Below are positions 5,356 through 23,258 of a stretch of 64,000 bases of DNA, one piece after another. Position 1 is the stretch's first letter. Every line of letters begins with the position of its first letter. The stretch is taken from contig JAAYIN010000050.1 in assembly GCA_012523405.1 (NCBI GenBank), positions 1 to 64,000 of the forward strand, given 5' to 3'. Both the position numbers and the translations under genes were made by a program. The notes under the pieces are model-generated. The model did not search any database. It saw nothing but the letters and a program-made list of their open reading frames with translations, and was not told the DNA's origin. The DNA comes from Clostridiales bacterium (GTDB lineage Bacteria; Bacillota; Clostridia; Christensenellales; Aristaeellaceae).

Positions 5356-6883
5356 ATGAAAAAATACACATATGTAGACCTGCTGGAAAGGCTTGTCTGT
5401 TTAAAGGATTTAGCCATACCACCAGAGGAAGGCGAGCAGTCAGGCTGCTTTTCCAGCTATGATCGAAGGAGTCAATATCAACCTGAAAGCAGAAAATATA
5501 TTGACTGGGGAGCAAACAACGATGGGGATGGCTATCTATACAGGCAAAGTGATGGCGTCGTAGCGTTTGAGATGGACGGACCTGGTGTTATCTGGAGGGC
5601 GTGGAGCGCAAACCCCTGTGGCGGCCATATACGCATCTTTTTAGATGGCAGCGCTCTACCTGTGATTGACATGCCCTTTCGAGATTTTTTTGAGCGTTAT
5701 GATGCAGATAATACGCAGCTTTGGCCGGGAAACTACCCGCAGCTTGTACCCACGCTGTCCAGGGGCAAAAATCGATTTATACCTATCTCGTTTCAAAAGG
5801 GCTGCAAAATTACATTGGCAGAGGGCTGGGGTGCATTCTATCACTTTACCTATACGAAATTTGCTGCGGATACTCAGGTGCCTACTTATAATGCGGCGCT
5901 AGGGCGCGAACATCAAATGCGATTGCGTGAAATAGATCGACAGCTTGCTATGAGGGGATATCTGCATCATGCCGGCGAGATGATGTGGAACAGCATTACC
6001 TGTGAAGGCGGGGAAGACACAATTGTTTATGAAGATGAAAACCCTGGTGCGCTCACCTGTATATCCGTCAGTGCTAATGATCCCAAAGAATTGGAGAACC
6101 TGATTTTGGAAGTGTGTTGGGATGGAGAATCATCGCCATCTGTACTATGTCCTTTGCCGAGATTTTTCTCATGCATAGAGGAGAGCACACCTTTTCGCTG
6201 CTTGCCGATATCCAAAAGCGCGAAAGAGTATAGCAGCTTTTGGTATATGCCATATGACAGAGCGCGCATTGTACTGAAAAACAGGCAAAGCAGTCCGATC
6301 ACCCTGTCGTTTGGTTATCACAAAGAAACTCTATCCATACAGGAAGCAGACTCGATGATGCGATTCTGTGCGCTTACCCATGGCGATGATTTTGAGGGAC
6401 TGGATGTTTCGAGATTTCAAAAGGAGGGTGACCGCTGGCCTGACTGGCCTGTCCTTCGCTGCAAAGGAAGGGGACGATTTTGCGGGATGCACCTGTCTGT
6501 GGATGATCGTTGGGATGAATCGGTAGGCGAGGCCATCAATTGGTGGTGGGGGCGAGGGTGATGAGAAATTCTTTGTAGATGGTGAGAAATTCCCGTCCAC
6601 CTTTGGCACTGGCAGCGAGGATTATATTGGATACGCTTGGGCAGCTGAGCCGCCGCATGTGCTTTTTGATTGTGCATACGCATGCCAAAATGCGGTGCCC
6701 ATTGATGGTAACGGATTAACATCTGTTGCACGCTACCATGTTGGGGATAATGTGCCTTTCCAGCATTCATTTGAGGCGTATATAGAAAAATATAAAGAAA
6801 ACAACTGGAATGAAGGACGTGCGATATGCGTTTATGAAGCAACCGCTTATTGGTATGTGATGCCGCAAAACCTTTATTCATGA
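5356..6883 (+). pseudogene. GH172 (DUF2961) glycosidase, interrupted by a frameshift
   Basis: Encodes a DUF2961/GH172 protein. Characterised members include a difructose dianhydride I synthase/hydrolase and D-arabinofuranosidases. Translation from ATG 5356 (RBS GAGGAGG) follows the family to NWWWG at 6547-6552 and then hits TGA at 6559-6561. Removing one G from the G5 run at 6548-6552 restores the family sequence GEGDEKFF, then [12 protein letters not shown], and continues to a stop at 6881-6883. This downstream part holds two conserved glutamates 21 residues apart, which I recall as the spacing of the catalytic pair in this family. The short product would therefore be inactive. A sequencing or assembly error, a recent mutation or recoding are all possible. 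There is no signal peptide, so it is cytoplasmic. Confidence 0.8.
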
Positions 6884-6898
6884 TTGGTGAGTGGAACA

Positions 6899-8377
6899 AT
6901 GAAAACGACGATCACAAAGCCCTATCTTTGGTTTCCTGTCCAAAAAGGTGCGCCCAAATGCACGGTTGAAGTATTTAGTGATAAGCGGAAAATATATGAG
7001 TTTGATATTGAGGCTTCTCTAGGCGGTTCGGCTGATTTTCATTCGCATTGGCATGTCGCTGAATGGGTGGGGGAAGAGCTTGAGTTTCAAAGCAATTGCC
7101 CGGATGGCTGGTGGGAGTTTGTCAGCCAGCAGGATGGTTGGGAGGAGATTGGTGAACACAGACCAAGCCTTCACTTCACAGCGCATACGGGATGGCTTAA
7201 CGATCCGAACGGTTTGCATTTTGATGGCGTAAATTATCATCTCTATTTTCAGCATAACCCGTATGGCGTTACATGGGGGAATATGCACTGGGGACATGCT
7301 GTTAGTAAGGATTTGATCCATTGGGAGCAACTGGATGAAGCGATGTATCCCGATGAACATGGCGTGATGTTTTCTGGGAGCGCATGTATACATCCAAAGA
7401 CAGGCAGCAATGATGTATTGATGTTTTATACGGCTTGGGGAGGCGAGCAGCGTTGGTCCAAAAATGCGCAAACCAGTCAGTGTTTTGCTCGGACTTTGGG
7501 CAGCGAAATTGTGAAGGAGCGCATGTGCTTTTGGGGACCCAATAAGGAGTCGCGCGATCCTAAAGTATTTTTCCATGAAAGTACCGCTGCGTTCGTCATG
7601 GTATTGTATTTGCATGAGAATGATTTTGGTATCTTTCGCTCGAATGATTTGCATCGATGGACGCAAACGCAGACGATAACATTGGCAGGTGCAACGGAAT
7701 GTCCTGATTTATTTTTACTGAAAAACAAAGAAGGGCAAAGCAGATGGGTGCTGCTGACTGCGGATGGGTTTTACTATATTGGTGATTTTGATGGATATTG
7801 CTTTACAAATTATTCCCATCGTCATCATGCGTATATGGGTAATCTGCCATATGCAGCGCAGACATGGTCCAATGTGATGGGTGAACGCACGGTTCTTATC
7901 GCGTGGCTTCGCACACTGAATACTGGGCATCGATACCGCGGCTTAATGTCACTGCCAATGGATGTTTCTTTAAACCGCAATGCAGATGCTTTACAATTGC
8001 ATCCGGCCAAGGAGTTTGAGAAAAACCGAAAGCGTGAGGTGCGGTATAGCGGTGAGCCTGTGAAGATGAGCATAAAACATGGAATGTATGAATTCGTATT
8101 GAAACTAGATGAAGATGAATCATGCAAGATGCTTATTGGTGAAAATGAGTGGGTTTTTAATCCGAAGCAGAAGGTTTTGATTGCTTTGAATGAACGATAC
8201 GATTGCTTATCAACACAGTTTAGGATATTTGTGGACTGTGATATAGTAGAAATTTTTGCGCTGGACGAGGGACTGTATTGCGCTGCTGAAATCAAGCAAG
8301 ATCCATATATGTTGGATATTCGGTTTTTAGGAATACCAAGGAAGGATGGTGCGATCAAGCTTTTCATTCATGAGTGA
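6899..8377 (+). CDS. GH32 beta-fructofuranosidase / exo-fructanase
   Basis: A 492-residue GH32 enzyme that hydrolyses beta-fructosyl linkages (sucrose, inulin- or levan-type oligosaccharides). All three family motifs are present: WLNDPNG (residues 99-105, nucleophile Asp102), RDP (219-221) and ECPD (acid/base Glu267). About 90 residues before the propeller form an extra N-terminal beta-rich region. There is no signal peptide, so it acts on imported substrate. ATG 6899 has GGTGAG upstream; an in-frame TTG at 6884 has no ribosome-binding site. It follows the GH172 gene by 15 bases and supports a fructan or difructose-dianhydride role for the operon. Confidence 0.9.
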   Translation: MKTTITKPYLWFPVQKGAPKCTVEVFSDKRKIYEFDIEASLGGSADFHSHWHVAEWVGEELEFQSNCPDGWWEFVSQQDGWEEIGEHRPSLHFTAHTGWLNDPNGLHFDGVNYHLYFQHNPYGVTWGNMHWGHAVSKDLIHWEQLDEAMYPDEHGVMFSGSACIHPKTGSNDVLMFYTAWGGEQRWSKNAQTSQCFARTLGSEIVKERMCFWGPNKESRDPKVFFHESTAAFVMVLYLHENDFGIFRSNDLHRWTQTQTITLAGATECPDLFLLKNKEGQSRWVLLTADGFYYIGDFDGYCFTNYSHRHHAYMGNLPYAAQTWSNVMGERTVLIAWLRTLNTGHRYRGLMSLPMDVSLNRNADALQLHPAKEFEKNRKREVRYSGEPVKMSIKHGMYEFVLKLDEDESCKMLIGENEWVFNPKQKVLIALNERYDCLSTQFRIFVDCDIVEIFALDEGLYCAAEIKQDPYMLDIRFLGIPRKDGAIKLFIHE

Positions 8378-10350: not shown

Positions 10351-11232
10351 TCAGTCCATATACTTCTTGAAAAAAGCACATTCCTCAGCGTTGCAGCGAT
10401 GAGCTGCGTCTGATTTCATGTTGCAGTGAAACACATGCCCCAATCCCTTTGCACCTTCACTGTAGAAATGCAGCTGGAACGGCACGTTGCATTTCATGAG
10501 CTGCGGCATGAGAAGTGCAGGCTGCTCGGTCAGGAAATCGTCGGTACAGGTCATGAGGAAGGTGGGAGGGAATGCCTCTGTGACGAAATTCACGGCACTA
10601 ATACTGTGCAGCTTTTCAGGTGTGGAGCCGTCGAGAAACAAGTCATCCATGAGGACGTTGGTCATTTCATCTGAGCTGTTTCCCTCAAGAGAATACACCC
10701 CGCAGTTCAGGGCAATTGCGGTGGGGATGAAGCCCTTAGGCGCGGAGAATGAAAAGGTCTGTGCATAGTCTAAATTGGAGCACAGCGCAGCGTATAAGCT
10801 CAGCAGATGACCGCCGGCGGAGTCTCCCAGCGCAAATACATGACTTGCGTCCATGTTGTATTTTGCAGCATTGTCTTGTACCCATGTGAACACGGTGTTG
10901 ACATCCTCAAGCTGCGCGGGGAATTTGGCTTCTGGCGCTAAACGATAGGAGAAGTTGACCACAGCAAAGCCATGCTCCGCTAAGCTCATGCAGTAATACT
11001 GGTAGCGCTCTTTATCTCCATATACCCAGCCGCCGCCGTGAACGCTGACGATAACAGGCAGTGTTTCGCCTGCTCTTGCCTTGGGACGATACAGATCCAT
11101 CACCTGCAGCACGTCCGCTCCATAGGGGATGTCGTCAAAACGTTCGATGGTTTCGGGCGTTTTAAGACCTGCATCCCGAATGTCATCGCCTTTTTTGAAG
11201 TTGATACGCACCATATTGCTCATGTCAGACAT
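10351..11232 (-). CDS. Alpha/beta-hydrolase esterase (HSL-like)
   Basis: A 293-residue carboxylesterase-type alpha/beta hydrolase. It has the oxyanion motif HGGGWVYG, the nucleophile elbow GDSAGGHL, an acidic residue in TCTDDFL and the catalytic His in GLGHVF. No signal peptide, so cytoplasmic. ATG 11232 is preferred because GGAGGG lies 6 bases upstream; an in-frame TTG two codons earlier is too close to that site. It is the last gene of the minus-strand array that runs from the RbsB-type binding protein through the importer and an MBL-fold protein. Its place suggests it cleaves an ester or acylated sugar brought in by that transporter. Confidence 0.82.
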   Translation of the reverse strand: MSDMSNMVRINFKKGDDIRDAGLKTPETIERFDDIPYGADVLQVMDLYRPKARAGETLPVIVSVHGGGWVYGDKERYQYYCMSLAEHGFAVVNFSYRLAPEAKFPAQLEDVNTVFTWVQDNAAKYNMDASHVFALGDSAGGHLLSLYAALCSNLDYAQTFSFSAPKGFIPTAIALNCGVYSLEGNSSDEMTNVLMDDLFLDGSTPEKLHSISAVNFVTEAFPPTFLMTCTDDFLTEQPALLMPQLMKCNVPFQLHFYSEGAKGLGHVFHCNMKSDAAHRCNAEECAFFKKYMD

Positions 11233-11246
11233 AGTCAACCCTCCGA

Positions 11247-12056
11247 TTAGATGTTGTTTTTGTTGTAAACGATGTTGCCCACAACGCCGTCCATGCGGGA
11301 CATGGTTTCGGGATTCATCGCCTTGGCAATGAACCCGTTATGGCCTTTGAAGGAGAAGGGTACATCGTCAGTAGTTCCTGCCAGGATGTCATCGCAGACA
11401 GCGATAACACTAGGAATAATGGACGTTGGGCCATTGCCATCGCCATGGGATAGCAAAATGGCATCATACTTTCCATCTGTTTCAGCCTTCAGCTTCATCA
11501 AACTATCGCGATAGGCGGTGATGGGTGTGGAGTAATCCTCAAACATGAATGAGAAGGGATTGCAGCCGTCGCCTGTTAACAGCATACGCTCCTCGCGGAT
11601 TAACATCGCCACTGAACCATAAGTATGACCCACACAATCATAAATGTCAATATGGATACCACCCAAGTCGAAGCTGTCTCCGCCCTTCACATCTTGAAAA
11701 CGCGTATAGTCATCAGTTGGGATGTAGTCCTCCGGCGGTAGGCTTAGCTCATTAAAATCCGCTTGTCTGAAAGAATCAGCGCCATGGGGGACGAAAATAT
11801 AATCATCTTTTCGATTCATGTAGATCGTATCAAATTCCTTTGTACCCATGGCGTGATCTACATGCCCGTGGGTCAAAAGAACGAGGATTGGCTTATCGGT
11901 CAGCTTGTCTACGCAGGCTTTGAGGCTGCCAAAGCCGCTGCCTGTATCCAGAAGTGCTGCATAGCGATCGCCCTCTATCAGATACATAAGCTCTGTGCAT
12001 AGTCCAAAAATACGGGTGATTCGATTGGTGATCTTCTCGGTTTTGAATTCTACCAT
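11247..12056 (-). CDS. MBL-fold metallo-hydrolase
   Basis: A 269-residue metallo-beta-lactamase-fold hydrolase with the metal-binding motif THGHVDHAMG and downstream ligands in GHTYGSV and LLSHGDGNG. ATG 12056 is used because AAGGAGA sits just upstream; the frame stays open for 21 more codons without one. It lies between the importer permease and the esterase with a 14-base gap to the latter. Substrate is not predictable from the fold; lactone, thioester or phosphoester cleavage are all possible. The operon suggests processing of the imported compound. Confidence 0.8.
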   Translation of the reverse strand: MVEFKTEKITNRITRIFGLCTELMYLIEGDRYAALLDTGSGFGSLKACVDKLTDKPILVLLTHGHVDHAMGTKEFDTIYMNRKDDYIFVPHGADSFRQADFNELSLPPEDYIPTDDYTRFQDVKGGDSFDLGGIHIDIYDCVGHTYGSVAMLIREERMLLTGDGCNPFSFMFEDYSTPITAYRDSLMKLKAETDGKYDAILLSHGDGNGPTSIIPSVIAVCDDILAGTTDDVPFSFKGHNGFIAKAMNPETMSRMDGVVGNIVYNKNNI

Positions 12057-12073
12057 CTTGTTCTCCTTAATAA

Positions 12074-12117
12074 GTGAGAGTCCTGCATTCCGCAGTACGG
12101 ATCGACAGGACTCCCAC
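12074..12117 (-). other. Intercistronic hairpin between permease and MBL genes
   Basis: GTGaGAGTCCTG (12074-12085) pairs with CAGGACTCcCAC (12106-12117), with one mismatch. No U-run follows in the direction of transcription, so it is probably a processing or stability element. Confidence 0.5.
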
Positions 12118-12147
12118 ATTTAAATTTATTTTTGCATCATTAATTCA

Positions 12148-13143
12148 TTAGGCCGCAATTGCTTCTTCTTTGCGCTTGTTGGCAGCAATTGCACGGCGAC
12201 CCATCTGGAATGCGTCAAACCACATAACACCTAGCATGATCGCACCCTTGACCACAAACTGATAGTAGGTGTTCAGTCCGGCTAGCTGCATACCGTTGGC
12301 CAGCAGACCCATGATCAGCACACCTGCAACGCAGTTTGCGATCTTGCCGTCGCCGCCGCGTACCGATACGCCGCCAACCAGCACGCCTGTTAGAACCGTA
12401 ATCTCTGTGCCTGCTGCTGTACCAGCCGCTGCAGCGCCTACGCGCGAGCATAGAACGATTGCACCAATGCCGCAGAATAGACCTGCAACGCCGCCAACGA
12501 GGTACTTCATACGCTTCACGTTGATACCTGCTAGGCGAGATGCAGCTTCGTTGCCGCCCAATGCGAAGACATAGCGGCCAAAGTAAGTGCGGTTCATGAG
12601 GAAGCTCATAATCAGACCCGCGATGACCATGAACACGGTCGCATAGGTCAGGCTGGGATGAAAGATCGTTCCTTGACCGATGACCTTAAAGGCAGCGGGA
12701 AGACCTGAGATGGTCTTGGAACCCGTGATAACATACGCAAGTCCCTGATAGACGGTGCTCAGTCCGATGGTGCAGAAGATGCGGGGGAGCTTTAGCACCT
12801 GCTCCAGCAAAGTAGCGAGCATGGAAAAGGCAATGCTCAGCAGGATTGTCACGATGACAGCAGCGATGACAGGAACACCTGACGTGATCATCATCGCGCA
12901 GACAACGCCGCAGATACTCATCTGGTAGCCAACCGACATATCCAGCCCGCCCGACATCATGATTAGCGCGATACCATAAGCGCAGATGATGACGTATGAG
13001 TTTTGGTTGAGAATGTTCAGGAGATTCTTAACCGTCAGGAAGTTTGGATTGGTGAAGCTAAAGACGATGCAAATGATGACCAATAAAACCCATGCCAGAT
13101 TTCTTCTGCAGAAATCGATGATCTTTGCAAGACTCTTGTTCAT
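12148..13143 (-). CDS. RbsC-type sugar ABC transporter permease
   Basis: A 331-residue permease of the ribose/galactose (CUT2) class with 8-10 predicted membrane helices. The family features SGGLDMSVG near residue 65, FGRYVFALGGNEAASRLAGI in the cytoplasmic loop and a Gly-rich LVGGVSVRGGDGKI region near the C terminus are intact. RBS GGAGGA precedes ATG 13143. It starts 3 bases after the ATPase gene and works with it and the RbsB-type protein as one importer. CUT2 systems usually carry monosaccharides or related small polar compounds. Confidence 0.92.
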   Translation of the reverse strand: MNKSLAKIIDFCRRNLAWVLLVIICIVFSFTNPNFLTVKNLLNILNQNSYVIICAYGIALIMMSGGLDMSVGYQMSICGVVCAMMITSGVPVIAAVIVTILLSIAFSMLATLLEQVLKLPRIFCTIGLSTVYQGLAYVITGSKTISGLPAAFKVIGQGTIFHPSLTYATVFMVIAGLIMSFLMNRTYFGRYVFALGGNEAASRLAGINVKRMKYLVGGVAGLFCGIGAIVLCSRVGAAAAGTAAGTEITVLTGVLVGGVSVRGGDGKIANCVAGVLIMGLLANGMQLAGLNTYYQFVVKGAIMLGVMWFDAFQMGRRAIAANKRKEEAIAA

Positions 13144-13146
13144 ACG

Positions 13147-14637
13147 TTATTCCTCCACAATGCCAGAGGCCAATTCGAGGATTTTCTCCTGGCAGAAATT
13201 ATTTTTGGAAACTTCGCCGCCAACCGTACCCTCATGGAGCACGATGATGCGGTCGCTCATACCCAGTAGTTCTTCCATTTCAGATGAAATCATCAATATG
13301 GACTTACCGTCTTCCACTAGCGAATTCATCAGCTTGTAGATTTCTTGCTTGGCACCCACGTCGATGCCGCGAGTTGGTTCATCAAAGATCAAAATATCGT
13401 TTTGTGCAGCTAAGACCTTTGCTACGACTACCTTTTGCTGATTGCCGCCGGATAGATTGCGCACGAGCTGCTTTACGGTCGGCGTTTTGATATCCAAGGT
13501 CTCGTTATAGGTTTCAACCAGCTCATCGATCTTCTTGAAATCCATGAAACTCCATTTGCTGTTTTGGCGCAGCGCCATGATGGCGATGTTCCACTCGATG
13601 GAGTATTCAAGGAATGCACCTTCCTGTTTGCGATCCTCGGGTACAAGCCCGATGCCAAGATCCACGCCGTCAGCCGCAGAATGTGCTGTCATCTGCTTGC
13701 CGCGGACGAGAATCTTGCCGCTATCAGGCTTTACATCGCCGCAAAGCATCTTTGCAAGCTCCGTGCGTCCTGCTCCGACAAGTCCTGCCAGACCTAAGAT
13801 CTCGCCCTTGTGCAGTGCCATGTTAATATGAAAATCGCCGTTGCCGCTTAGATCCTGAACCTCCAAAACCGGCTCCCCGATCTGTGCATTACGAGAAGGA
13901 AACTTCTCTGTCAGCTCGCGGCCGATCATATAGCGAATCAAGTCTTTTTTAGTGATGTCCGCAACGTTTTGCGTGGTGACATATTTGCCGTCGCGGAATA
14001 TCGTCACGCGGTCGCAGATCTCAAATAGCTCTTCCAAACGGTGGCTGATGTAAATGACAGACACACCGCGTGCTTTTAGTTTGCGAATAATACGGAACAT
14101 GTTCTGGACTTCTGCCATTGGGATGGAGGCGGAGGGCTCGTCCATGATCAAAACCTTGCAGTTTTTAATCATCGCCTTTGCAATCTCTACGATTTGCATC
14201 TGAGCGGTGGAGAGCATCTGAACCTGCGTGTTCACATCGATCTTGACACCAAGTTCTTCCATGATGTCTTGAGAGCGGCGCTTCATTTCCTTGAAATCGG
14301 GACAGCCGCGCGTTTTGCCTACTTTGTCGCCTAAAAAAATGTTCTCTGCTATGCTTAGGGAGGGAACTAAATTGAATTCCTGATAGACTACGCCAATGCC
14401 TGCTTCTTTTGCAATCGCGGGCGTTAGTTTTGTATATTCCTTGCCTTCGATAACGATGCTTCCCGATTCGGCTTGGATAGCACCTGAAATGGTTTTGATG
14501 ACCGTTGACTTACCTGCGCCGTTTTCGCCGATGAGGGCAAGAACTTCGCCTGCCTCCACATCAAAGGAGACATCATCCAGTGCTACAACACCCGGATAGA
14601 TTTTCGTCACATTTTTGACTTCGAGAATCTTTGCCAT
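13147..14637 (-). CDS. RbsA/MglA-type double ATPase of sugar ABC importer
   Basis: A 496-residue ATPase with two nucleotide-binding domains, as in CUT2 importers. The N-terminal half has Walker A GENGAGKST (near 37-45), a weak signature LSTAQMQIVEIAKAM and Walker B VLIMDEPSA. The C-terminal half lacks a full Walker A, as in the family, but has signature LSGGNQQKVV and DEPTRGIDVGA. This is the catalytically competent ATPase of the locus. The other ABC-like protein (15782-17233) lacks these residues. It follows the binding-protein gene after a hairpin and abuts the permease gene. Confidence 0.92.
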   Translation of the reverse strand: MAKILEVKNVTKIYPGVVALDDVSFDVEAGEVLALIGENGAGKSTVIKTISGAIQAESGSIVIEGKEYTKLTPAIAKEAGIGVVYQEFNLVPSLSIAENIFLGDKVGKTRGCPDFKEMKRRSQDIMEELGVKIDVNTQVQMLSTAQMQIVEIAKAMIKNCKVLIMDEPSASIPMAEVQNMFRIIRKLKARGVSVIYISHRLEELFEICDRVTIFRDGKYVTTQNVADITKKDLIRYMIGRELTEKFPSRNAQIGEPVLEVQDLSGNGDFHINMALHKGEILGLAGLVGAGRTELAKMLCGDVKPDSGKILVRGKQMTAHSAADGVDLGIGLVPEDRKQEGAFLEYSIEWNIAIMALRQNSKWSFMDFKKIDELVETYNETLDIKTPTVKQLVRNLSGGNQQKVVVAKVLAAQNDILIFDEPTRGIDVGAKQEIYKLMNSLVEDGKSILMISSEMEELLGMSDRIIVLHEGTVGGEVSKNNFCQEKILELASGIVEE

Positions 14638-14702: not shown

Positions 14703-15689
14703 TTAATTCTCTGGGAAGTAAGTAGCGATGGTTTCGGGGGTGATAGCGATGCATTCTTCCTTGTACTTGCCATCAACGATGCGGTCAGACCATTCGCCTA
14801 GCAGCATGTAGCAGGTATAGGGGGTGCCTTCGCCCAGCATTACGGTGCCGCGGATAGCGGATTCGTTGGCGGGGGATAGCTTAATGCGATCACGGATATA
14901 TTCAGCTGTATCAACTGTGAAGATAGCGAACTGGGATACATCGCCGGATTTCATTGCGATTTCGTCAGCGCCCTGGCCAAGGTCAGTGCCATAGGTCATG
15001 ATGACTTTGATTTCAGGATGTTCCATCAGACCGATTTCCACCAATTCCTGTGACTTTGAAGCAGTTGCCTCAACGTTTGCATTCTCGGTTGTGTAGACAA
15101 CCTTTGCCTTGGGGCATAGGGCTGTGATTTCGTCCATGCCGTTGGAACGAGCGAGTGCGTCTTCGGAGTCGGTTACCTTCATAACCATGACTTCGATGGA
15201 AGCGTCGGCGGCATCGGGGAAGGTCTTGTTAATCCAGTCGGCAGCCATCTGAGCCTGAACTGCACCTGTGTTGTACTGATCAACGTTGATGCAAACATCA
15301 TATGCGTCGGGATCGGATAGCGCGGTGCCGATAACGATGATGAAAGCGCCGTCGTCGCGTGCAGACTTAGCAGCGTCGGAGATAGCGGTCGCATCAACGG
15401 GGAACATGATGATGTAATCAGTGCCGTTAGCAACGAAGTTCTCGATATTGGAGATCTGTGTCTCAACGGACATGTTCGCATCAGCTGCGGTGTAGTTCAT
15501 GCCAGCGCTGGTGAAGTAATTGTCGAACTGGTCGGACATATCAGCGAAGAACTCGGAGGCTAGAGAAATAGCGGAGAAACCGACTTTCTTGCCAGCTAAT
15601 TCTTCGGCAGTTGTGGTTTCAGCGGTTGCGCAAGATACCATAGCCAGCATCATTGTGAGAGCCAGGAGCAACGCGAGAATTTTTTTCAT
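14703..15689 (-). CDS. RbsB-type sugar ABC solute-binding protein
   Basis: A 328-residue periplasmic-binding-protein-like sugar binder (peripla_BP_4 type). The signal peptide (1-24) contains MVSCATAE. This could be a weak lipobox (Cys20) or a type I Ala-x-Ala site. The mature domain starts with KVGFSAISLASEFFADMSDQ, close to ribose/galactose-binding proteins. It has its own promoter just upstream and a strong hairpin behind it, so it is likely expressed above the ATPase and permease. Together with the upstream histidine kinase genes it may also deliver the ligand signal, but this is inference. Confidence 0.88.
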   Translation of the reverse strand: MKKILALLLALTMMLAMVSCATAETTTAEELAGKKVGFSAISLASEFFADMSDQFDNYFTSAGMNYTAADANMSVETQISNIENFVANGTDYIIMFPVDATAISDAAKSARDDGAFIIVIGTALSDPDAYDVCINVDQYNTGAVQAQMAADWINKTFPDAADASIEVMVMKVTDSEDALARSNGMDEITALCPKAKVVYTTENANVEATASKSQELVEIGLMEHPEIKVIMTYGTDLGQGADEIAMKSGDVSQFAIFTVDTAEYIRDRIKLSPANESAIRGTVMLGEGTPYTCYMLLGEWSDRIVDGKYKEECIAITPETIATYFPEN

Positions 15690-15781: not shown

Positions 15782-17233
15782 TTATTTGGTGGTCATTCTT
15801 ACAATGCATCCATTTTTGTTGGTTAAAATGAGACCGCAATCCATTTGAAACTGCTCCACCGAGCGTCCTACAAAAACGACTTTGATGCCATTTGATTGCA
15901 TTTGGTCGAGGTATTCACGCAGTATTTCCTGTTCTTGCGCACTGAAACTTGAAAGTGGATTTTCCAGAATCATCACCTTGGGTTTCTGCAGCGCCCAGCG
16001 ATATATGGAGAGGATTTTTCGTTGCACACGCGTTAGCTGAGCTACGATTTGCTTTGCTTGTGTGATGTTCATGTAGCTGCAAAATTCTCGGTTCAGCCGA
16101 TCCTCAATTGCCGGCGCAATATAGCCGAATTTCCCATTGGAAACCCTGTTTTTGAGCGGCAGCATCAGGTTTTGTTTGACGGTCAAGTTGCTTAGCAGCA
16201 TACTCGCGCTTTCCCTTGGAATCAAAGCTGTGCCATCCGCCCAGCTTTCTCCTTCAGGCGGAATTTCGCCGCCTACGTAAGCATCCCAAACATCACGGTT
16301 TTCCTCCCGAATGGTGCGCATCGCCTGCCATAAGCTGTCGCGGCTGGTACGCTCGTAGTCCACCAGTCCAACAATATTCGGATTTGGTGATCGCTGACTG
16401 AACATGCCCGAATAGGCATTGCTGCGCAAGCGCTGACGCAAGTTGTCGGTAAGCCCTGTCCACTCCTTTAGCTCGCGCCCCTCTGAAATCACCTGTATTC
16501 TGGTCGCGATTTCTGCAAAAATGGCGTAATTATCCGAGCAAATGACAAAGGAAATACCCTCGGCATTAACGGTAAGGATCAAGTCACATAGCGCTTCAAC
16601 TTCCCTGCTCTCATAAATGTCGCTGGTCAAATCCAGCACCACTAGCTCTGCCTTGAGAAGCTTCGCCTTCAGCACGCTCAATTTGTTTTGTTCCAGTTTG
16701 CTAAGCGCCCATAGTCTGGTATGCACGGAGGCATCCAGACCGTATTTTTGAAGGTAGCACTGTACACGCTGCTCTGCTTTTTTTCGGCTGTAGAATTTCA
16801 AAGGTGAGGATGGTACGCCGATCGCCGCTAGATTATCACCTACTGTCAGGTTTTCCACCAAATCCATACCTGCGGTAATCGTATAAATACGGTGGGAGAT
16901 GGCTGTATTGCGATTGTAACCAACCGTTTCCTCGCCCCAAAGAAGCATTTTACCTGATTTCAAAGCGCAGTCGCCAGCCAGAACATTGACCAGCGTCTTT
17001 AGACCGCTGCCGCGCAGCCCTTGAATATAGACGATATCCCTCTCGTAAACTTCTAGGTTGTAATTGACTAGCCCGCCTGTTGGGATTTCGCTTGTGCGCA
17101 GCGTGCTATTTGCGGCCTGCATACCATTGCCGCGCTGATCACGCATGAAATCCAATGGCAGTTGTTTGCGCGTTGCTGCACTGTCCAAAGGACCGTCGGC
17201 AACGCCATGAATAATCCGCAAAACTTCTTTCAT
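15782..17233 (-). CDS. Degenerate ABC ATPase (pseudo-ATPase) linked to two-component system
   Basis: A 483-residue protein with the layout of an RbsA-type double ATPase but degraded key residues. Walker A reads GLRGSGLKT (72-80), with the lysine displaced by one. The signature is LSKLEQNKL. Walker B ends LVVLDLTS (197-204) with no catalytic Glu, and the H-loop position reads CSDN. The second half has ILENPLS instead of LDEPT. ATP hydrolysis is therefore unlikely; nucleotide binding could remain. Its ATG overlaps the histidine kinase stop (ATGA), and a normal RbsA-type ATPase is encoded downstream. A regulatory role, for example coupling transporter state to the kinase, is my inference. Confidence 0.75.
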   Translation of the reverse strand: MKEVLRIIHGVADGPLDSAATRKQLPLDFMRDQRGNGMQAANSTLRTSEIPTGGLVNYNLEVYERDIVYIQGLRGSGLKTLVNVLAGDCALKSGKMLLWGEETVGYNRNTAISHRIYTITAGMDLVENLTVGDNLAAIGVPSSPLKFYSRKKAEQRVQCYLQKYGLDASVHTRLWALSKLEQNKLSVLKAKLLKAELVVLDLTSDIYESREVEALCDLILTVNAEGISFVICSDNYAIFAEIATRIQVISEGRELKEWTGLTDNLRQRLRSNAYSGMFSQRSPNPNIVGLVDYERTSRDSLWQAMRTIREENRDVWDAYVGGEIPPEGESWADGTALIPRESASMLLSNLTVKQNLMLPLKNRVSNGKFGYIAPAIEDRLNREFCSYMNITQAKQIVAQLTRVQRKILSIYRWALQKPKVMILENPLSSFSAQEQEILREYLDQMQSNGIKVVFVGRSVEQFQMDCGLILTNKNGCIVRMTTK

Positions 17234-18105
17234 CTCTCGGCACCGCTTTCCATGCGGTTTTCATAGCCTGCGCGAGTAAAGACATCCACGACTGGAAGCG
17301 TCACGAAAGCATCCGTTCCTTCGCCCTCAATGGAATGATATCTGATCCCATAATCATTGCCGAAGATAATTCTGATCTGCGTGCTGACATTGCGCAGGGC
17401 TATGCCGCTATGGCGGCTGGATGAGCTAGTGGGCTTGGGGCTTGATTCGTTTTCCATGCGGCTGTTGAGCTTGTCCAGATTCATCGCGCTCATTCCTGCA
17501 CCATCATCTGATACGACGATCGTCAGCCTGTTTTGAGTGCAAAACAAGCGGAGGGTGATATGACCTTGCCCCGGTACTTTTTCCAGACCGTGAATCAAGG
17601 CGTTTTCAACAATAGGTTGAAGCGTCATTTTGGGCAGATATAGGTCATTGATATATTCGGATTCCATATGGATGCTCATCAGGAATCGATCTTCAAATCT
17701 GTATTTCTGAATGTAGAAGTAATCCTCTATATGGCGTATTTCTTCGCCTACCGTCACAAGCGCATCCGAACCGCTAATGCAGTAACGAAAAAAATGCGAA
17801 AGCGTTTCCGTTGCTTTTGCAATTTCATGTTGATTTGCTTGTAAGGCCTGACTCCGGATGGAATCAAGGGTGTTGTAGAGAAAATGCGGGTTGATTTGTG
17901 ATCTGAGATAACTCAGCTCGATCTGTTTTCTGGCGCGCTCTTGCTCGGGTGTACCTACTGCCTGGATACGCAAGCGTTGCTCTTCTCGCATCGTGAATCG
18001 CAAAAGATTCCTCTGGCGCAAATAGAGGATCAATACCACCACAAATAATGCTGCAAATAATGCGCAGGCAATCCAGCCAATCCATTTCATATTCCAGCAC
18101 CTCAT
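17230..18105 (-). CDS. Sensor histidine kinase, YesM/LytS type, minimal N terminus
   Basis: A 291-residue kinase with one membrane helix (residues 8-29) and almost no extracellular part. A short linker leads to the His_kinase domain with the phospho-acceptor His74 in QINPHFLYNTLDSIR. The HATPase domain follows (VENALIHGLEK, DDGAGM). YesM proteins normally have a large extracellular sensor between two helices, which is missing here. Signal input must therefore come from the membrane or a partner, and the overlapping degenerate ABC protein is the obvious candidate. It overlaps the response regulator by ATGA. Confidence 0.88.
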   Translation of the reverse strand: MRCWNMKWIGWIACALFAALFVVVLILYLRQRNLLRFTMREEQRLRIQAVGTPEQERARKQIELSYLRSQINPHFLYNTLDSIRSQALQANQHEIAKATETLSHFFRYCISGSDALVTVGEEIRHIEDYFYIQKYRFEDRFLMSIHMESEYINDLYLPKMTLQPIVENALIHGLEKVPGQGHITLRLFCTQNRLTIVVSDDGAGMSAMNLDKLNSRMENESSPKPTSSSSRHSGIALRNVSTQIRIIFGNDYGIRYHSIEGEGTDAFVTLPVVDVFTRAGYENRMESGAER

Positions 18106-19712
18106 CCATAAATCCGACGGTAATCTGTTGGTTTGATTCCTGTTTCTTTTTTGAATAGCTTAGAGAAGTATTTCTCGTCCAAATATCCAACCTGCAATGC
18201 AATCTTTTTCACAGGTAGGTTTGTTTTGGCGAGCAAACGCTCCGATTCCTTCAAGCGAAACTGCGTTAAATAGTCATTGAATCCAATATTCATTTCGCTT
18301 TTGAAAAGCTTGCTGAGATAGGTTTCCGATACGCCGACCGCCTCCGCTACATCGCGAAGCGCAATCTGATCGCGGAAATGCTCCTGAATGTACTGCACTG
18401 CAACGATGATGGGCTTCCCTTTTTTCTCCTTTAAGCCCTGCAATTCTTCCTCAATGTGGCGCACGAGCATCAAATAGAGATTTTCAACCAATTTCACATA
18501 GTTTCGAGCGTTCAGATAGGCGTAATAGTAGTTTTCACGGAAGCGCTCTTTCTTTTCCTGAGGCACATAGAGGAGCAATTTATCCTCTAAATGATAGAAG
18601 GATTTTTGAAGCACACCTGGAAAAACATCATTTCTCTCGCTTACTGCTTTGCTAAGCTCTGCAAATGTTTTTCCCAGTGCCTCAATCCGAAAATACCTGA
18701 CGCTATCCACGATCGAATCAAGATAGGCTAGTACTTTGGGAGAATTGAGTGAAATGCGGGGCAGTTGTTCAATCTGCTTGAACTCCATGATGCCGTTGCC
18801 GGCGGTCATGAGGCGACCCCACTCAGCGCAAAGAGCTTCTGAGAGAATCTTGGACAATTCGCTAAAATCACTGGTCTCGCTGCTGATGCCGAAATTCAGC
18901 TTCATTTCACCATATACTTCCCGCAGATCCAATATGTAATAGTAGAGCGCTTTGATTGCTAGCCGAACAGATTCTCGCTGCTCGGGTTGGTAATTAAAGA
19001 TCAGCACATATCCCATAAACGTGCGGTTGTAATACACCTGCATCTGATGAGTCAGGTTCTCTTCGATAAAGTGTTCTATTTTTTGATTACCCAATGAATT
19101 GGCTTCCTCAAACATAGCATTGAGGCTGGATACAATACACAACGCGAGAAAACATCCATGCGAAATATCCATGCCAAGCATTTCGTTGCAGGCATCAATA
19201 GAACACAGATGCGGTGAATTTCCCTTTTCCCACATGCCATTGAGCAGCGGTTCCCAGAATTTCTCCCGCAATAATAGCTGCCTCATTGGCTCGAGATCGG
19301 ATAGGGTTGTCATATTCAGTTGCTCTTGTCGCTGGGCGTCGATGTTTAGGCAAACCTTCTCAAGCACTTGATTGAGCTGTTCTTCTTCGATGGGTTTCAG
19401 CAGATAATCCACCACATTGAGCTGAACCGCGCTGCGGGCATACTCAAAATGACGATAGCCTGAAATCAGCACGAAGAAAGGGTTGACCTCTGCTTGGCGC
19501 ACCCTTTTGATAAGCTCAAGCCCGTCAAAAACAGGCATCTTAATGTCTGACAGAACTAAGTCCGGTTTGAGTTGACATATGCAGTCATACGCATCCTGAC
19601 CCGTGGTGCATTCTGCGACGATTTCAATGCCCAAGGTATCCCAATGACCAAGCTGCTTGATAAGTTGTATGATTTTTGGTTCATCATCGGCAATGATCAC
19701 TGTATACTTCAT
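18102..19712 (-). CDS. Response regulator with AraC-type DNA-binding domain (YesN-like)
   Basis: A 536-residue regulator. An N-terminal receiver domain (1-120) has the phosphorylation site Asp56 in LVLSDIKMP. A long middle region of unknown fold follows (about 150-420). The C-terminal AraC double helix-turn-helix (about 435-536) contains RDVAEAVGVSETYLSKLF and KKIALQVGYLDEKYFSKLFKKETG. It pairs with the overlapping kinase gene. RBS GAGGTG precedes ATG 19712, only 25 bases after the lpdD stop, so it may be co-transcribed with the decarboxylase genes. The likely target is the promoter of the RbsB-type gene. Confidence 0.9.
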   Translation of the reverse strand: MKYTVIIADDEPKIIQLIKQLGHWDTLGIEIVAECTTGQDAYDCICQLKPDLVLSDIKMPVFDGLELIKRVRQAEVNPFFVLISGYRHFEYARSAVQLNVVDYLLKPIEEEQLNQVLEKVCLNIDAQRQEQLNMTTLSDLEPMRQLLLREKFWEPLLNGMWEKGNSPHLCSIDACNEMLGMDISHGCFLALCIVSSLNAMFEEANSLGNQKIEHFIEENLTHQMQVYYNRTFMGYVLIFNYQPEQRESVRLAIKALYYYILDLREVYGEMKLNFGISSETSDFSELSKILSEALCAEWGRLMTAGNGIMEFKQIEQLPRISLNSPKVLAYLDSIVDSVRYFRIEALGKTFAELSKAVSERNDVFPGVLQKSFYHLEDKLLLYVPQEKKERFRENYYYAYLNARNYVKLVENLYLMLVRHIEEELQGLKEKKGKPIIVAVQYIQEHFRDQIALRDVAEAVGVSETYLSKLFKSEMNIGFNDYLTQFRLKESERLLAKTNLPVKKIALQVGYLDEKYFSKLFKKETGIKPTDYRRIYG

Positions 19713-19737: not shown

Positions 19738-20079
19738 CTAGCATAACATGACGGACGCTTCAATCTCTCCGAGCAAAAGGGTGCATGCGTTCAAAATCTG
19801 AGCGATTTGCGCTGGGCTCGCGTGATCATAATGGATGCCGCAGCGAACCGTGACAGGCTGCTGCGATGCTTTTGCAAGCGCTACTGCCCAAGACTCGGAT
19901 AACATGGCTTCCTTATGCCCGGCGCGTTCCATGGTTTGATGCGTGCTATTTGATTCTGCGAAGGTAACAGCACCTACATGGCTGCTGTCTCCGCCCAAAA
20001 GACTGACATCAAGCCCCTCGTCCAGCTGCAAAACGGTTGCGGTAATGCTGCGGTCAAGAACGGTGATGGTTTTGGTCAT
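19738..20079 (-). CDS. lpdD: LpdD-like UbiD-associated subunit
   Basis: A 113-residue protein resembling the small third component (LpdD/BsdD, gallate decarboxylase subunit D) that accompanies UbiD- and UbiX-type genes in Firmicutes. It begins inside the UbiX stop (ATGA), so the two are translationally coupled. The Gly-rich LLGGDSSHVGAVT stretch and conserved GHKE are visible. LpdD proteins have been described as assisting prenylated flavin transfer or decarboxylase activity. No catalytic residues can be assigned. Identification rests on size, gene order and overall resemblance. Confidence 0.7.
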   Translation of the reverse strand: MTKTITVLDRSITATVLQLDEGLDVSLLGGDSSHVGAVTFAESNSTHQTMERAGHKEAMLSESWAVALAKASQQPVTVRCGIHYDHASPAQIAQILNACTLLLGEIEASVMLC

Positions 20080-20645
20080 TTCATTCCCTCCCAGCGGATG
20101 AATGTTTCTGGCGCGTATCCCAGTTGATCCAGAATCTTGCCGACCATATGGTTTGTCATGTCCTCGATGGTTTGAGGACTGCTGTAGTAACTGAGCATGG
20201 GCGGCAGAATTCTAACGCCCATTTGGCTCAGATCAAGCAAATTCCGAAGATGAATCTGAGAAAGAGGGCTTTCTCGTGGCACTAAAATCAGCTTTCTGCC
20301 TTCCTTTAGCACGACATCCGCAGCTCGAAGCAGCAGATTATCACTATAGCCGCTATGGATGCCTGCGACTGTTTTCATGCTTGCAGGGGCAACCACCATA
20401 CCGCAGGCGGTGAACGTTCCCGAAGCGAGCGCAGCACCGATATTGCTGTTATCATAAGTTACATCCGCAAGCTTGGATGCATCCTCCAAGTTCATTCCGC
20501 ATTCCTGTGAAAGCGTCATCTCTCCGCCCTTGGTGACCACCAAATGCGTTTGGACGGGCATGCTTTGCAGGGCTTTAAGCAATGCTACGGCAATGGGCGC
20601 GCCGGAAGCCCCAGAAATACCGATGATCAGTCGTTTTTCAACCAT
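20076..20645 (-). CDS. ubiX: UbiX-type flavin prenyltransferase
   Basis: A 189-residue flavoprotein. The family makes prenylated FMN from FMN and dimethylallyl phosphate, the cofactor of UbiD decarboxylases. The N-terminal IIGISGASGAPIAVALLKAL is the FMN-binding start. CGMVVAPASMKTVAGIHSGYSDNLLLRAADV and LVPRESPLSQIHLRN follow, both close to family consensus. ATG 20645 starts inside the end of the ubiD-type gene and has GGAGG 13 bases upstream. The gene is placed between its client decarboxylase and LpdD, as in bsdBCD-like loci. Confidence 0.92.
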   Translation of the reverse strand: MVEKRLIIGISGASGAPIAVALLKALQSMPVQTHLVVTKGGEMTLSQECGMNLEDASKLADVTYDNSNIGAALASGTFTACGMVVAPASMKTVAGIHSGYSDNLLLRAADVVLKEGRKLILVPRESPLSQIHLRNLLDLSQMGVRILPPMLSYYSSPQTIEDMTNHMVGKILDQLGYAPETFIRWEGMK

Positions 20646-22093
20646 TTGGTGTAATCCACCTCCAAAAACTGAGAACGCTTGAATTGTGATTTCAAGTGAA
20701 AGGGTACAGTGCAGTCGTAGATTGTTTTGCATGAAATACCGACATGTGAAATGCTAGGGCTATATTCTGGGCAGGAACTTGGGTCGAGCGGATGGCACCT
20801 AACACCTGGAATTGTGATGATATCACGGTCCCCTTGAAATCTGGTATTCATCGCCCAAAGCACATCATCCGTATCAAAAATATCCACATCCTCATCCACC
20901 AAAATGACGTGCTTGAGTTCTGGGAAAGACGAGAATGCTAAAAGAGCCGCTTGTCTCTGCTTGCCTTCGTCGGTGGGTACGGACTTTTTGCATTGCACAA
21001 TTGCCATGTACTTCCCGCCGCCTGATGGATGCGCATATACGTTGGTGATTTTCCCAGGCATGGCTTTTTCAAGCATATTGAGAATGGATGCTTCAGTAGG
21101 GATGCCCGCCATGGACACATGCTCGCCTGAGGGACCGATGCAGGTTTGCAAAATAGGGCTCTTGCGGTGCGTAACCGCCTTTACGCGAATTTCCCAGCAG
21201 ACACTGCTGGCGGCACCTGTATATCCAGGGAATTCAGGCATGGCGTAGCCTGTATGCGAATGCTTATCCTCTTGAATGCGATGTCCCGTAATGATTTCGC
21301 CTTCGATGACGAACTCTGCATTGGCTATGCAGTTCTCCTTGACAGAGACGCAGGGAGCTAATTCCACAGCTTTTCCGCGGACAGCACCTGCGATGGATAG
21401 CTCGTTGAAACCAAGGGGGGTGGTAGGAGGCTCAAAGCATGAGGCGATTTCAATGGCAGGGTCGACGCCGATCGATATGGAGATGGGCAGAGTTTGTCCT
21501 AATTCCTCTGCGCGTTCAGCCATGGCGCCGATATGACGTGAACCGGGTTGCAGGAACACGGACAATTCATCAGGACCTTGCAGGCATAGACGATGTATGG
21601 TTACATCGGACAACTGCGTATCAGGATGAGTCGCGTAGCACATGCCCATGGTAATGTAGGGACCTGCATCCTGCGGCGTGTTCTTGGGCGCAGGGACAAT
21701 TTCGCGTATGTCAAAGCCCGCATCGGTTGCCAGATGGACAACCTCTTGGCATTGAGGTTTTTGAGTGATCACCACAGGATCAATTGGATTTCGCGCAGAG
21801 TCGCACAGAAGGCGGCCTAAGTCCTCCTTGGGGCAGTCCAGCAACGCAGCAACACGACTGCGTGAACCTACTACGCCAATGGCGACCTTCACATCTGAAA
21901 ACCCATTAACGTTTTCAAATAACATGGCAGGACCGTTGATATTTGTCGGGCGCTGGACTGTGCCGCCTGCACCGATATAGCGATATACCCCCGATAGCTC
22001 TGCTTCGGGATCTACGGCAACTGTGGTTTCCAGCAACATTTTATTCTCACGCAGCAAGTTAAGTGCGCTGCGCAGGTCATGTACTTGAGCCAT
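20627..22093 (-). CDS. ubiD: UbiD-family decarboxylase (hydroxybenzoate/gallate type)
   Basis: A 488-residue UbiD-type decarboxylase, using prenyl-FMN to decarboxylate aromatic or unsaturated acids reversibly. Visible family segments include DPVVITQKPQCQEVVH, APKNTPQDAGPYITMG, GEIITGHRIQEDKHSHTGYAMPEFPGYTGA and VDEDVDIFDTDDVLWAMNTR. The order ubiD-ubiX-lpdD with a divergent LysR gene matches the phenolic-acid decarboxylase loci bsdBCD and lpdBCD. A hydroxybenzoate substrate (for example gallate, protocatechuate or 4-hydroxybenzoate) is therefore likely but not proven. ATG 22093 has GAGGTG 8 bases upstream and is preferred over the in-frame ATG at 22108. Confidence 0.9.
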   Translation of the reverse strand: MAQVHDLRSALNLLRENKMLLETTVAVDPEAELSGVYRYIGAGGTVQRPTNINGPAMLFENVNGFSDVKVAIGVVGSRSRVAALLDCPKEDLGRLLCDSARNPIDPVVITQKPQCQEVVHLATDAGFDIREIVPAPKNTPQDAGPYITMGMCYATHPDTQLSDVTIHRLCLQGPDELSVFLQPGSRHIGAMAERAEELGQTLPISISIGVDPAIEIASCFEPPTTPLGFNELSIAGAVRGKAVELAPCVSVKENCIANAEFVIEGEIITGHRIQEDKHSHTGYAMPEFPGYTGAASSVCWEIRVKAVTHRKSPILQTCIGPSGEHVSMAGIPTEASILNMLEKAMPGKITNVYAHPSGGGKYMAIVQCKKSVPTDEGKQRQAALLAFSSFPELKHVILVDEDVDIFDTDDVLWAMNTRFQGDRDIITIPGVRCHPLDPSSCPEYSPSISHVGISCKTIYDCTVPFHLKSQFKRSQFLEVDYTKWLKND

Positions 22094-22193
22094 TCTATTG
22101 CACCTCATTCTTTTATTTTGGAGCTTTTATGTGTCGCGACTTCGCGATTTTATTCACAAATGGTTTGATTGATAAAGAGTCTCCATTGATTTG

Positions 22194-22358: not shown

Positions 22359-23258
22359 GTGAAGCTTGAGTATATCAAAGAGTTTGTGATGCTGGCACAG
22401 CTGGGTGGTTTTCAAGAAACGGCAGACGCATTGTTCATCTCCCAGTCCACCCTCTCCAAGCATGTCAAGGCCATCGAGGGAGAATTGGGTGTCCAGCTGC
22501 TTGACCGGAGCAGCAGAAAGGCATCGCTAAATCAACATGGACAAACCTTCTTGCTGTATGCTCAGCAAATCTCTGCATTGCAGGAGCAATATACCCAAGA
22601 CATCCGAAATCAGTATTCAAACGTCAAAAGCACCGTTGTTTTAGGTACCATTCCTGTTATGGCGCAGTATCATATCACGGATATAATTGCAATGTTCAAG
22701 CAAAACGAAGAGCATCTTGCGGTTGCTATCGTTGAAGCAGATACGCTGGTTCTACTGGACATGCTGCGCAATAAAGAATGTGAGCTTGCGTTTTTGCGGA
22801 AAGGCGATATTGTTTGTGCCGAATTTGCATATATGGATTTTGCGCCCGATACATTGGTTGCAATCACATCGCAAAAGCATCCGCTGGCATCGCATTCTTC
22901 TGTTAAGCTGCAAGAGCTTCAATACGATGCGCTGCTGATGCTTGAGGAGCAAACGCTGCTCAATGACCTTTGCATGAAGGCCTGCCATCAAGCGGGATTT
23001 ACGCCTAACGTAGCCTTTAGCGGACATCGAACAGACAACATCATTGACCTTGCAGCCAAAGGCTTAGGTGTCGGTCTTCTGATGAAAAAACAGGTCACCT
23101 TTCACAATCGCAATGACATTGCCATGCTGGAAATCATCCCTGTGATCCACTCGGATATTTGCCTTTGCTATTTGAAAGATGTACGGCTATCTGATGCGGC
23201 GATGCATTTCATACATTGTGTGGAACGATTAAAAATGAATGATAGAGTCGGAATATGA
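22359..23258 (+). CDS. LysR-family regulator of the decarboxylase operon
   Basis: A 299-residue LysR-type regulator. The N-terminal winged helix (residues 1-60, GGFQETADALFISQSTLSKH) is followed by a substrate-binding domain starting near 90. The start is GTG 22359 after GGGAGG; the nearby ATG is out of frame. It is divergent from ubiD-ubiX-lpdD, as the LysR regulator bsdA is from bsdBCD in Bacillus, so induction by a phenolic acid is the natural hypothesis. The gene ends inside the left arm of the palindrome-rich element that follows. Confidence 0.9.
   Translation: MKLEYIKEFVMLAQLGGFQETADALFISQSTLSKHVKAIEGELGVQLLDRSSRKASLNQHGQTFLLYAQQISALQEQYTQDIRNQYSNVKSTVVLGTIPVMAQYHITDIIAMFKQNEEHLAVAIVEADTLVLLDMLRNKECELAFLRKGDIVCAEFAYMDFAPDTLVAITSQKHPLASHSSVKLQELQYDALLMLEEQTLLNDLCMKACHQAGFTPNVAFSGHRTDNIIDLAAKGLGVGLLMKKQVTFHNRNDIAMLEIIPVIHSDICLCYLKDVRLSDAAMHFIHCVERLKMNDRVGI

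Follow-up and report, generated by a model that had tools for sequence, protein, structure and literature searches.

We analysed a stretch of 64,000 nucleotides (nt) of contig JAAYIN010000050.1 (positions 1 to 64,000 of the forward strand; assembly GCA_012523405.1, a Clostridiales bacterium of the Aristaeellaceae), hereafter called the window. The subject of the analysis is an RbsA-like gene whose product lacks functional ATP sites and which overlaps the gene of a YesM-type histidine kinase. Both lie on the minus strand, where the genes are transcribed in the order regulator, kinase, RbsA-like, RbsB, RbsA, RbsC:

18102..19712, minus strand: response regulator of 536 amino acids (aa) with a receiver domain and a C-terminal AraC-type helix-turn-helix (PF00072, 9.8e-23; HTH_18, 3.9e-22)
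17230..18105, minus strand: YesM-type histidine kinase, 291 aa, with one hydrophobic segment and no ectodomain (PF06580, 2.2e-27; PF02518, 7.1e-10)
17230..17233, minus strand: ATGA overlap of the kinase stop with the pseudo-ATPase start (read from the sequence)
15782..17233, minus strand: pseudo-ATPase, an RbsA-type protein of 483 aa with two nucleotide-binding domains (NBDs) and without functional ATP sites (motifs, ABC tree)
14703..15689, minus strand: RbsB-like substrate-binding protein (SBP; Peripla_BP_4, PF13407, 1.5e-26)
13147..14637, minus strand: canonical RbsA-type ATPase (full-length NCBIfam AraG/RbsA matches of ~532 bits; motifs intact)
12148..13143, minus strand: RbsC-type permease (BPD_transp_2, PF02653, 4.7e-33)

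The regulator and kinase genes, like the kinase and pseudo-ATPase genes, overlap by 4 nt, and judging from the ATGA overlap the kinase and the pseudo-ATPase are probably translationally coupled. The original prediction had described an ATPase-like protein without a proper Walker A, catalytic Glu and H-loop His, an ATGA overlap with a YesM-type kinase and a normal RbsA-type ATPase downstream. On re-check, the coordinates and frames of the pseudo-ATPase/kinase region were correct, the overlap was found at 17230..17233, and the downstream ATPase (13147-14637) proved to have intact motifs (GENGAGKST, DEP, SHR and LSGGNQQ), against which the loss of all three elements from the pseudo-ATPase was confirmed. 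The only SBP match of the operon sits after the pseudo-ATPase, together with RbsA and RbsC.

The YtfR/AraG/RbsA-type models recognise both halves of the window pseudo-ATPase, in two stretches, far under their equivalog cut-offs (101 bits at best, against 850); the ABC_tran match of the protein has an E-value of 2.7e-15, and it is 20% identical to the window RbsA over ~200 residues of NBD1. The Walker A of NBD1 reads GLRGSGLKTL, with no Lys in register. The Walker B Asp is kept, the catalytic Glu is replaced by Leu and the H-loop His by Asp, so that L, D, L and D stand in place of K, D, E and H. In addition to what had been noted before, NBD2 is shortened and degenerate too: its Walker A is absent, its Walker B reads EN and its signature LTRVQ. 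An AlphaFold2 model of the protein, made with the window RbsA as the only second row, had a pLDDT of 42.9 and was not used.

As a query, the window pseudo-ATPase found nothing but itself at E <1e-20 in 17 genomes of the genus and 300 of the family, and only NBD1-length matches in 396 genomes of the order; in these family and order searches four to five candidates were scored per genome. A wider contig search returned one distant place. The protein is thus a poor query for its own relatives. The recurrence of the system was followed through the kinase, and counts obtained in this way are lower bounds. A second triad of regulator, kinase and RbsA-like gene is present in the same genome (L056), adjoining another RbsA-RbsC-RbsB set; its kinase is the nearest relative of the window kinase in that genome (43%). 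A two-row kinase profile found 21 places in 19 of the 300 family genomes at E <1e-79, the next match being at 9.9e-55. The open frames at these places measure 309-428 aa in 20 cases and 543 aa in G028, where the contig starts, and those of the weaker matches mostly 480-650 aa. With a 19-row profile, 14 further places (E <=2.7e-76; next 3.7e-68) were found among 396 order genomes, in ten that lie outside the family. A 21-row profile then found three places outside the class (E <=1.1e-112) among 348 genomes of the phylum, the next match outside the window's own genome (G000) being at 1.4e-82. The second triad and these kinase-profile matches ruled out an oddity of the window alone, which had at first seemed likely.

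An RbsA-like gene, called here the partner, stands beside the kinase or the regulator in 36 of the 38 kinase loci, the window and L056 included; at the other two, L098 and L101, the contig ends before any partner gene could appear. The pair that the original prediction had proposed to seek in other genomes is thus a recurrent conserved unit, and a pseudo-ATPase gene that is never near a kinase, named there as a refuting outcome, is excluded. The gene order is regulator-kinase-partner in most loci, partner-regulator-kinase in L140, L144, L145, L146 and L149, and convergent in L141 and L142; the association persists while the order varies. Among the 19 loci of the family set, kinase and partner genes overlap by 4 nt in 17, and the partner has an open frame of 455-520 aa in all. 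At one family place (L104:1-1632, in G028), regulator and kinase similarity lie in a single open frame at the contig edge, which is either a fusion or a frame accident.

The loss of catalytic residues is a general feature of the partners. All 33 true RbsA proteins compared, 32 from triad loci and one from L057, carry K/D/E/H in NBD1 as well as DE and SGG in NBD2. The 36 partners keep none of the four NBD1 residues in five cases, one in 25, two in one, three in three and four in two, so that at most two remain in 31 of them. Some partners of kinases without a sensor (L106, L139, L147, L148 and L209-L211) keep the Walker A Lys or Arg, the catalytic residues being gone. Pfam recognised ABC_tran in 20 of 20 members, plus one weak AAA_21, and for six members no NCBIfam model reached its cut-off among the best 25 matches listed for each.

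For comparison, we used 36 loci of other YesM-type kinases (L213-L248), selected among the matches that ranked next in these searches. One further locus, L212 (G994, E 4.1e-79), was left out of both the 38 and the 36, its kinase being cut by the contig edge and having a HAMP domain, with an SBP gene after it. None of the 36 control loci has an ABC ATPase without a Walker A within 6 kb of the kinase. An RbsA-type gene above 300 bits lies within 6 kb in 15 of them, in every case with a Walker A. An SBP-like gene lies within 150 nt of the kinase in 12 controls, and in some cases this abutting gene may be the importer's only SBP.

A search that starts from the kinase could itself bias the link, and as a check a census was made with an RbsA-family profile in four genomes, yet these had been chosen for carrying triads. 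It comprised 94 genes of at least 420 aa from the fetched stretches, with the NBD1 K/D/E/H intact in 84 and defective in ten. A YesM kinase is found within 2 kb of nine of the ten defective genes, but only of two of the 84 intact ones (Fisher p 5e-10). The DE of the NBD2 Walker B is also missing in 19 of the 84 genes with an intact NBD1, so the losses in NBD1 are the telling ones. The tenth defective gene (L342) directly follows a DeoR-type regulator gene and is divergent to an RbsABC set. At this locus (L342:6677-8970, in G371) the DeoR-family gene occupies 6677-7474 and the RbsA-like gene, with a likely start at 7489, has a degenerate NBD1 and an intact-looking NBD2 (GVGKTT, LDEPTRGVD); here a degenerate importer ATPase may have been paired independently with a one-component regulator. 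For G371, a genome of 3 Mb, the RbsA-family genes read (at least 420 aa) number 53, and NBD1 is intact in 48. The 21-row kinase profile found no new place of the window's kind in 18 genomes of the family of G371.

YesM-type kinases usually, though not obligatorily, have two transmembrane helices that enclose an extracytoplasmic sensor. The window kinase has the His_kinase and HATPase_c domains and one hydrophobic segment (residues 5-35), and the topology confirmed the claim that it has a single membrane helix and no extracellular sensor. The linked clade has 36 kinases that could be measured: 31 show one hydrophobic segment or a gap of 0-5 aa between segments, and five have a gap of 89-119 aa. 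The lack of a sensor is thus shared by the window kinase and 30 of the 35 relatives measured. Among the 36 control kinases the gap is at least 125 aa in 34, and a single segment was found in two. In the window's genome, another YesM kinase (L057, G000:C113) has a 124-aa gap and stands beside an extra RbsB-like gene and an RbsB-RbsA-RbsC-RbsC set.

The state of the sensor goes together with the state of the ATPase. The partners that keep three or four of the K/D/E/H residues (L140, L144, L145, L146 and L149) are exactly those of the five ectodomain-bearing kinases. A partner is in view for 30 of the 31 sensorless kinases, and each of these partners has at most two of the four residues. The clean count for this comparison is 30 versus 5, L101 having no partner in view and the kinase frame of L104 running to the contig edge.

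Phylogenetic analysis of the ABC proteins separated the 36 partners from the 33 RbsA proteins by one branch (support 100/99), which was present in all 200 bootstrap trees. The window pseudo-ATPase falls on the partner side, and L146, the least degraded partner, is nearest to RbsA; the inner order of the tree is unsure because of long branches, above all that of the window protein (3.66). The kinase tree places all 36 of its linked kinases, that of the window included, in one group (98/94). The controls of this tree were L057 and 28 of the 36; of the remaining eight, seven were left out and L219 was excluded because it lacks the motif.

The ratio of nonsynonymous to synonymous substitutions (dN/dS) was determined for seven close pairs of loci, two of which share L100. 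It was 0.041-0.173 for the partner, 0.098-0.262 for the kinase and 0.074-0.271 for the regulator; for RbsA (six pairs) it was 0.020-0.093. One pair, L140/L144, is of the type that keeps three residues, and in L141/L142 dS exceeds 1.3. The partners are under purifying selection, about like the kinase and the regulator, and are mostly less constrained than the live ATPase. That the gene is a decaying pseudogene or its assignment an alignment artefact, as its ~20% identity to RbsA and lost motifs might suggest, is rejected with near certainty, since frames of 455-520 aa are open in 19/19 loci, dN/dS is 0.04-0.17 and the family occurs in other families and outside the class.

The co-occurrence of the pair with RbsC, another test proposed originally, was found in most cases: for 31 of the 38 loci, the fetched stretch contains both RbsA and RbsC. 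Among the other seven, L093, L098, L104 and L138 are on short contigs, L149 reaches RbsA only, and L094 and L139 are absences within the fetched stretch. In G001, G015 and G304 (the genomes of L094, L093 and L138), an RbsA 75-78% identical to that of L056 is encoded on another contig, and in G001 and G015 this unlinked RbsA is accompanied by RbsC and RbsB, with no kinase match in that stretch. RbsA of the L056 type (E <=1e-165) was found in 35 of 215 family genomes, including all 12 triad genomes with handles below G215. Thirteen genomes have it at 74% identity or more, and 11 of these have the triad; in the other two, G036 and G038, the sequence is cut off by a contig break, and in G036 a regulator gene stands at that point.

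Several neighbouring features were also recorded. After RbsC in the window, a metallo-beta-lactamase-fold protein and a BD-FAE/Abhydrolase_3 esterase are encoded at 10351-12119 (minus strand); these genes may belong to the importer operon, which would suggest that the substrate is esterified. Immediately upstream of the triad, at 19738-22108 (minus strand), lies a decarboxylase-type cluster of UbiD, a UbiX-like flavoprotein and a 113-aa PAC_bac protein, and a LysR gene at 22359-23258 is divergent to it. At L137:5575-6755, RbsB is split into two overlapping frames by a frameshift or an assembly error.

To see which parts of the RbsA fold the dead protein keeps, partners were compared with their cognate RbsA at 17 loci, where 19.5% of positions are shared. 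The best-matching stretch, at 0.49, is the LSVAxN segment right after Q-loop 1 (LSVAQNMFLGR/LTVADNVFVLR), which is also one of the two best-conserved stretches among the partners themselves. The ATP motifs are largely gone, with identities of 0.26 for Walker A 1, 0.19 for Walker B 1 and 0.14 for Walker A 2. The Asn after Q-loop 2 is present in 36/36 partners and 33/33 RbsA, and that after Q-loop 1 in 33/36 partners. We take the kept segment to lie at the entry of the helical subdomain. In MalK, the Q-loop (PMC7658222) and the helical subdomain (PMC3150292) take part in forming the cleft that holds the permease's coupling helix.

The observed basis for an interpretation is a conserved gene unit, a kinase without an ectodomain, the loss of catalytic residues, purifying selection and the link to RbsABC. 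We give about even chances to the reading that the dead RbsA is the input subunit of the kinase, most likely reading the RbsC permease, in a transporter-coupled two-component system. Its strongest support is that the dead RbsA follows the kinase, not the importer, and that the fully degenerate copies accompany sensorless kinases. Contact with the kinase, docking on RbsC, the direction of the signal and the importer as the target of the regulator are what we infer from this pattern. The dead RbsA, made together with the kinase through the overlapping genes, would stand in for the missing sensor and would bind the kinase in the cytoplasm. It would dock on its partner RbsC through the surfaces that it has kept, and the state of the SBP and the permease, substrate-loaded or idle, would set the activity of the kinase. 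The kinase would then act through the AraC-type regulator on expression of the importer operon.

A set of observations weighs against this reading. Ectodomain and ATPase state may have become matched in just one evolutionary event: all five kinases with an ectodomain belong to one genus (g80), which also holds sensorless kinases with dead partners (L141, L142, L147, L148 and L150). The control kinase L216 falls inside the linked group of the kinase tree. In BLASTP, the window pseudo-ATPase matches its own RbsA (E 9e-13) better than the L056 pseudo-ATPase (E 8e-8), and it is assigned to the family by its kinase, the gene order and a tree with long branches. RbsA and RbsC are not near L094 (~7 kb on each side) or L139 (~7.5 kb on one side), and the best match to the L056 RbsA in the L139 genome is only 51%. 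Among the 22 genomes whose L056-type RbsA is below 74% identity, the triad is present only in G028, so the importer can work without it. Finally, the Q-loop cores have diverged in the partners (identity to RbsA 0.18 and 0.15). LTVxEN-like segments are general to ABC ATPases, and retention of the segments after the Q-loops may reflect the fold rather than docking. Judged from the alignments, with moderate confidence, the kept segments would fit docking and the changed Q-loop would not.

More tentatively, and with rather more doubt than belief, we extend the reading of a kinase input subunit as follows. The dead two-NBD ATPase might have replaced the ectodomain, and its docking on RbsC2 instead of the live RbsA would make non-transporting receptors ('transceptors') of some of the permeases, so that the kinase would read the engagement of SBP and permease, not transport. 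The ectodomain-bearing genus with partly intact partners would then be an intermediate stage.

Somewhat less probable still, and on the whole unlikely, is that the dead RbsA is a cytoplasmic kinase subunit that senses a small molecule, such as a nucleotide or a sugar phosphate, or controls the stability of the kinase, with no permease contact. The link to the kinase is indeed tighter than that to the permease (a partner at 36/36 uncut loci, compared with RbsA and RbsC near 31/38), and binding of a nucleotide is thinkable because of the Walker A Lys or Arg kept in the partners named above. Against it, the L056-type RbsA is present even where it is unlinked (G001, G015 and G304) and in 12 triad genomes, and the segments after the Q-loops are kept.

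The original prediction had also suggested that the dead ATPase competes for the permease. Throttling of import by competition with RbsA for RbsC, the coupling to the kinase gene being mere co-expression, agrees with the protein being an RbsA paralogue near RbsABC in most loci. We regard it as improbable, since the gene is bound to that of the kinase (4-nt overlap in 17/19), not to rbsA or rbsC, since the partner remains beside the kinase even at L094 and L139, which have no RbsABC nearby, and since the state of the partner goes with the kinase ectodomain.

Known ways by which ABC systems report to kinases use either an outside part (SBPs acting on ectodomains) or a working transporter (Bce). 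If the reading of a kinase input subunit is true, there would also be an inside route, with a catalytically dead importer ATPase as the dedicated partner of the kinase, a pseudoenzyme with a signalling job. The loci would then offer a natural series from a near-intact to a dead ATPase that tracks the loss of the kinase's own sensor, and genes that annotation models put among sugar-importer ATPases would not be transport ATPases. Among the matches listed in a partial coverage of the literature, there was no earlier description of a two-component kinase whose partner is an ABC ATPase in a dead or degenerate state.

In family, length and weak match of both halves, the protein resembles ATPases of the RbsA/MglA/AraG type and differs from them in its lost ATP-site residues and its link to a kinase. 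Paralogues of transporter parts encoded beside a kinase gene are known as kinase partners from XylFII-LytS. Another case is CuaD-CuaS-CuaR, described as having a paralogous transporter part as the dedicated partner of the kinase encoded beside it (PMC10384115). In these SBP three-component systems the paralogue is outside and acts on the ectodomain, whereas here it is the ATPase, inside, and the kinase has no ectodomain. By analogy, the control kinases abutted by an SBP gene and the kinases with dead-ATPase partners look like two answers to the same task, one from outside and one from inside. For 5TMR-LYT kinases and the fold of the ECF S-component, an evolutionary exchange between transporters and sensor kinases has been described (PMC11109136); there the shared part is that of the membrane, and here it would be the ATPase. 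The Bce-type module (BceAB-BceRS) is alike in its sensorless kinase, and it shows that such a kinase can be driven by an ABC transporter (PMC10314905). In Bce modules the working BceAB itself binds the kinase through transmembrane helices and its ATPase cycle is sensed, whereas here a dedicated dead ATPase exists besides the live one. Their permease is of the BceB type and their ATPase of the BceA type; the system described here has BPD_transp_2 (RbsC) and the two-NBD RbsA type, and, unlike Bce, it combines a kinase of the His_kinase (PF06580) type and an AraC-type regulator with an importer of the RbsABC type.

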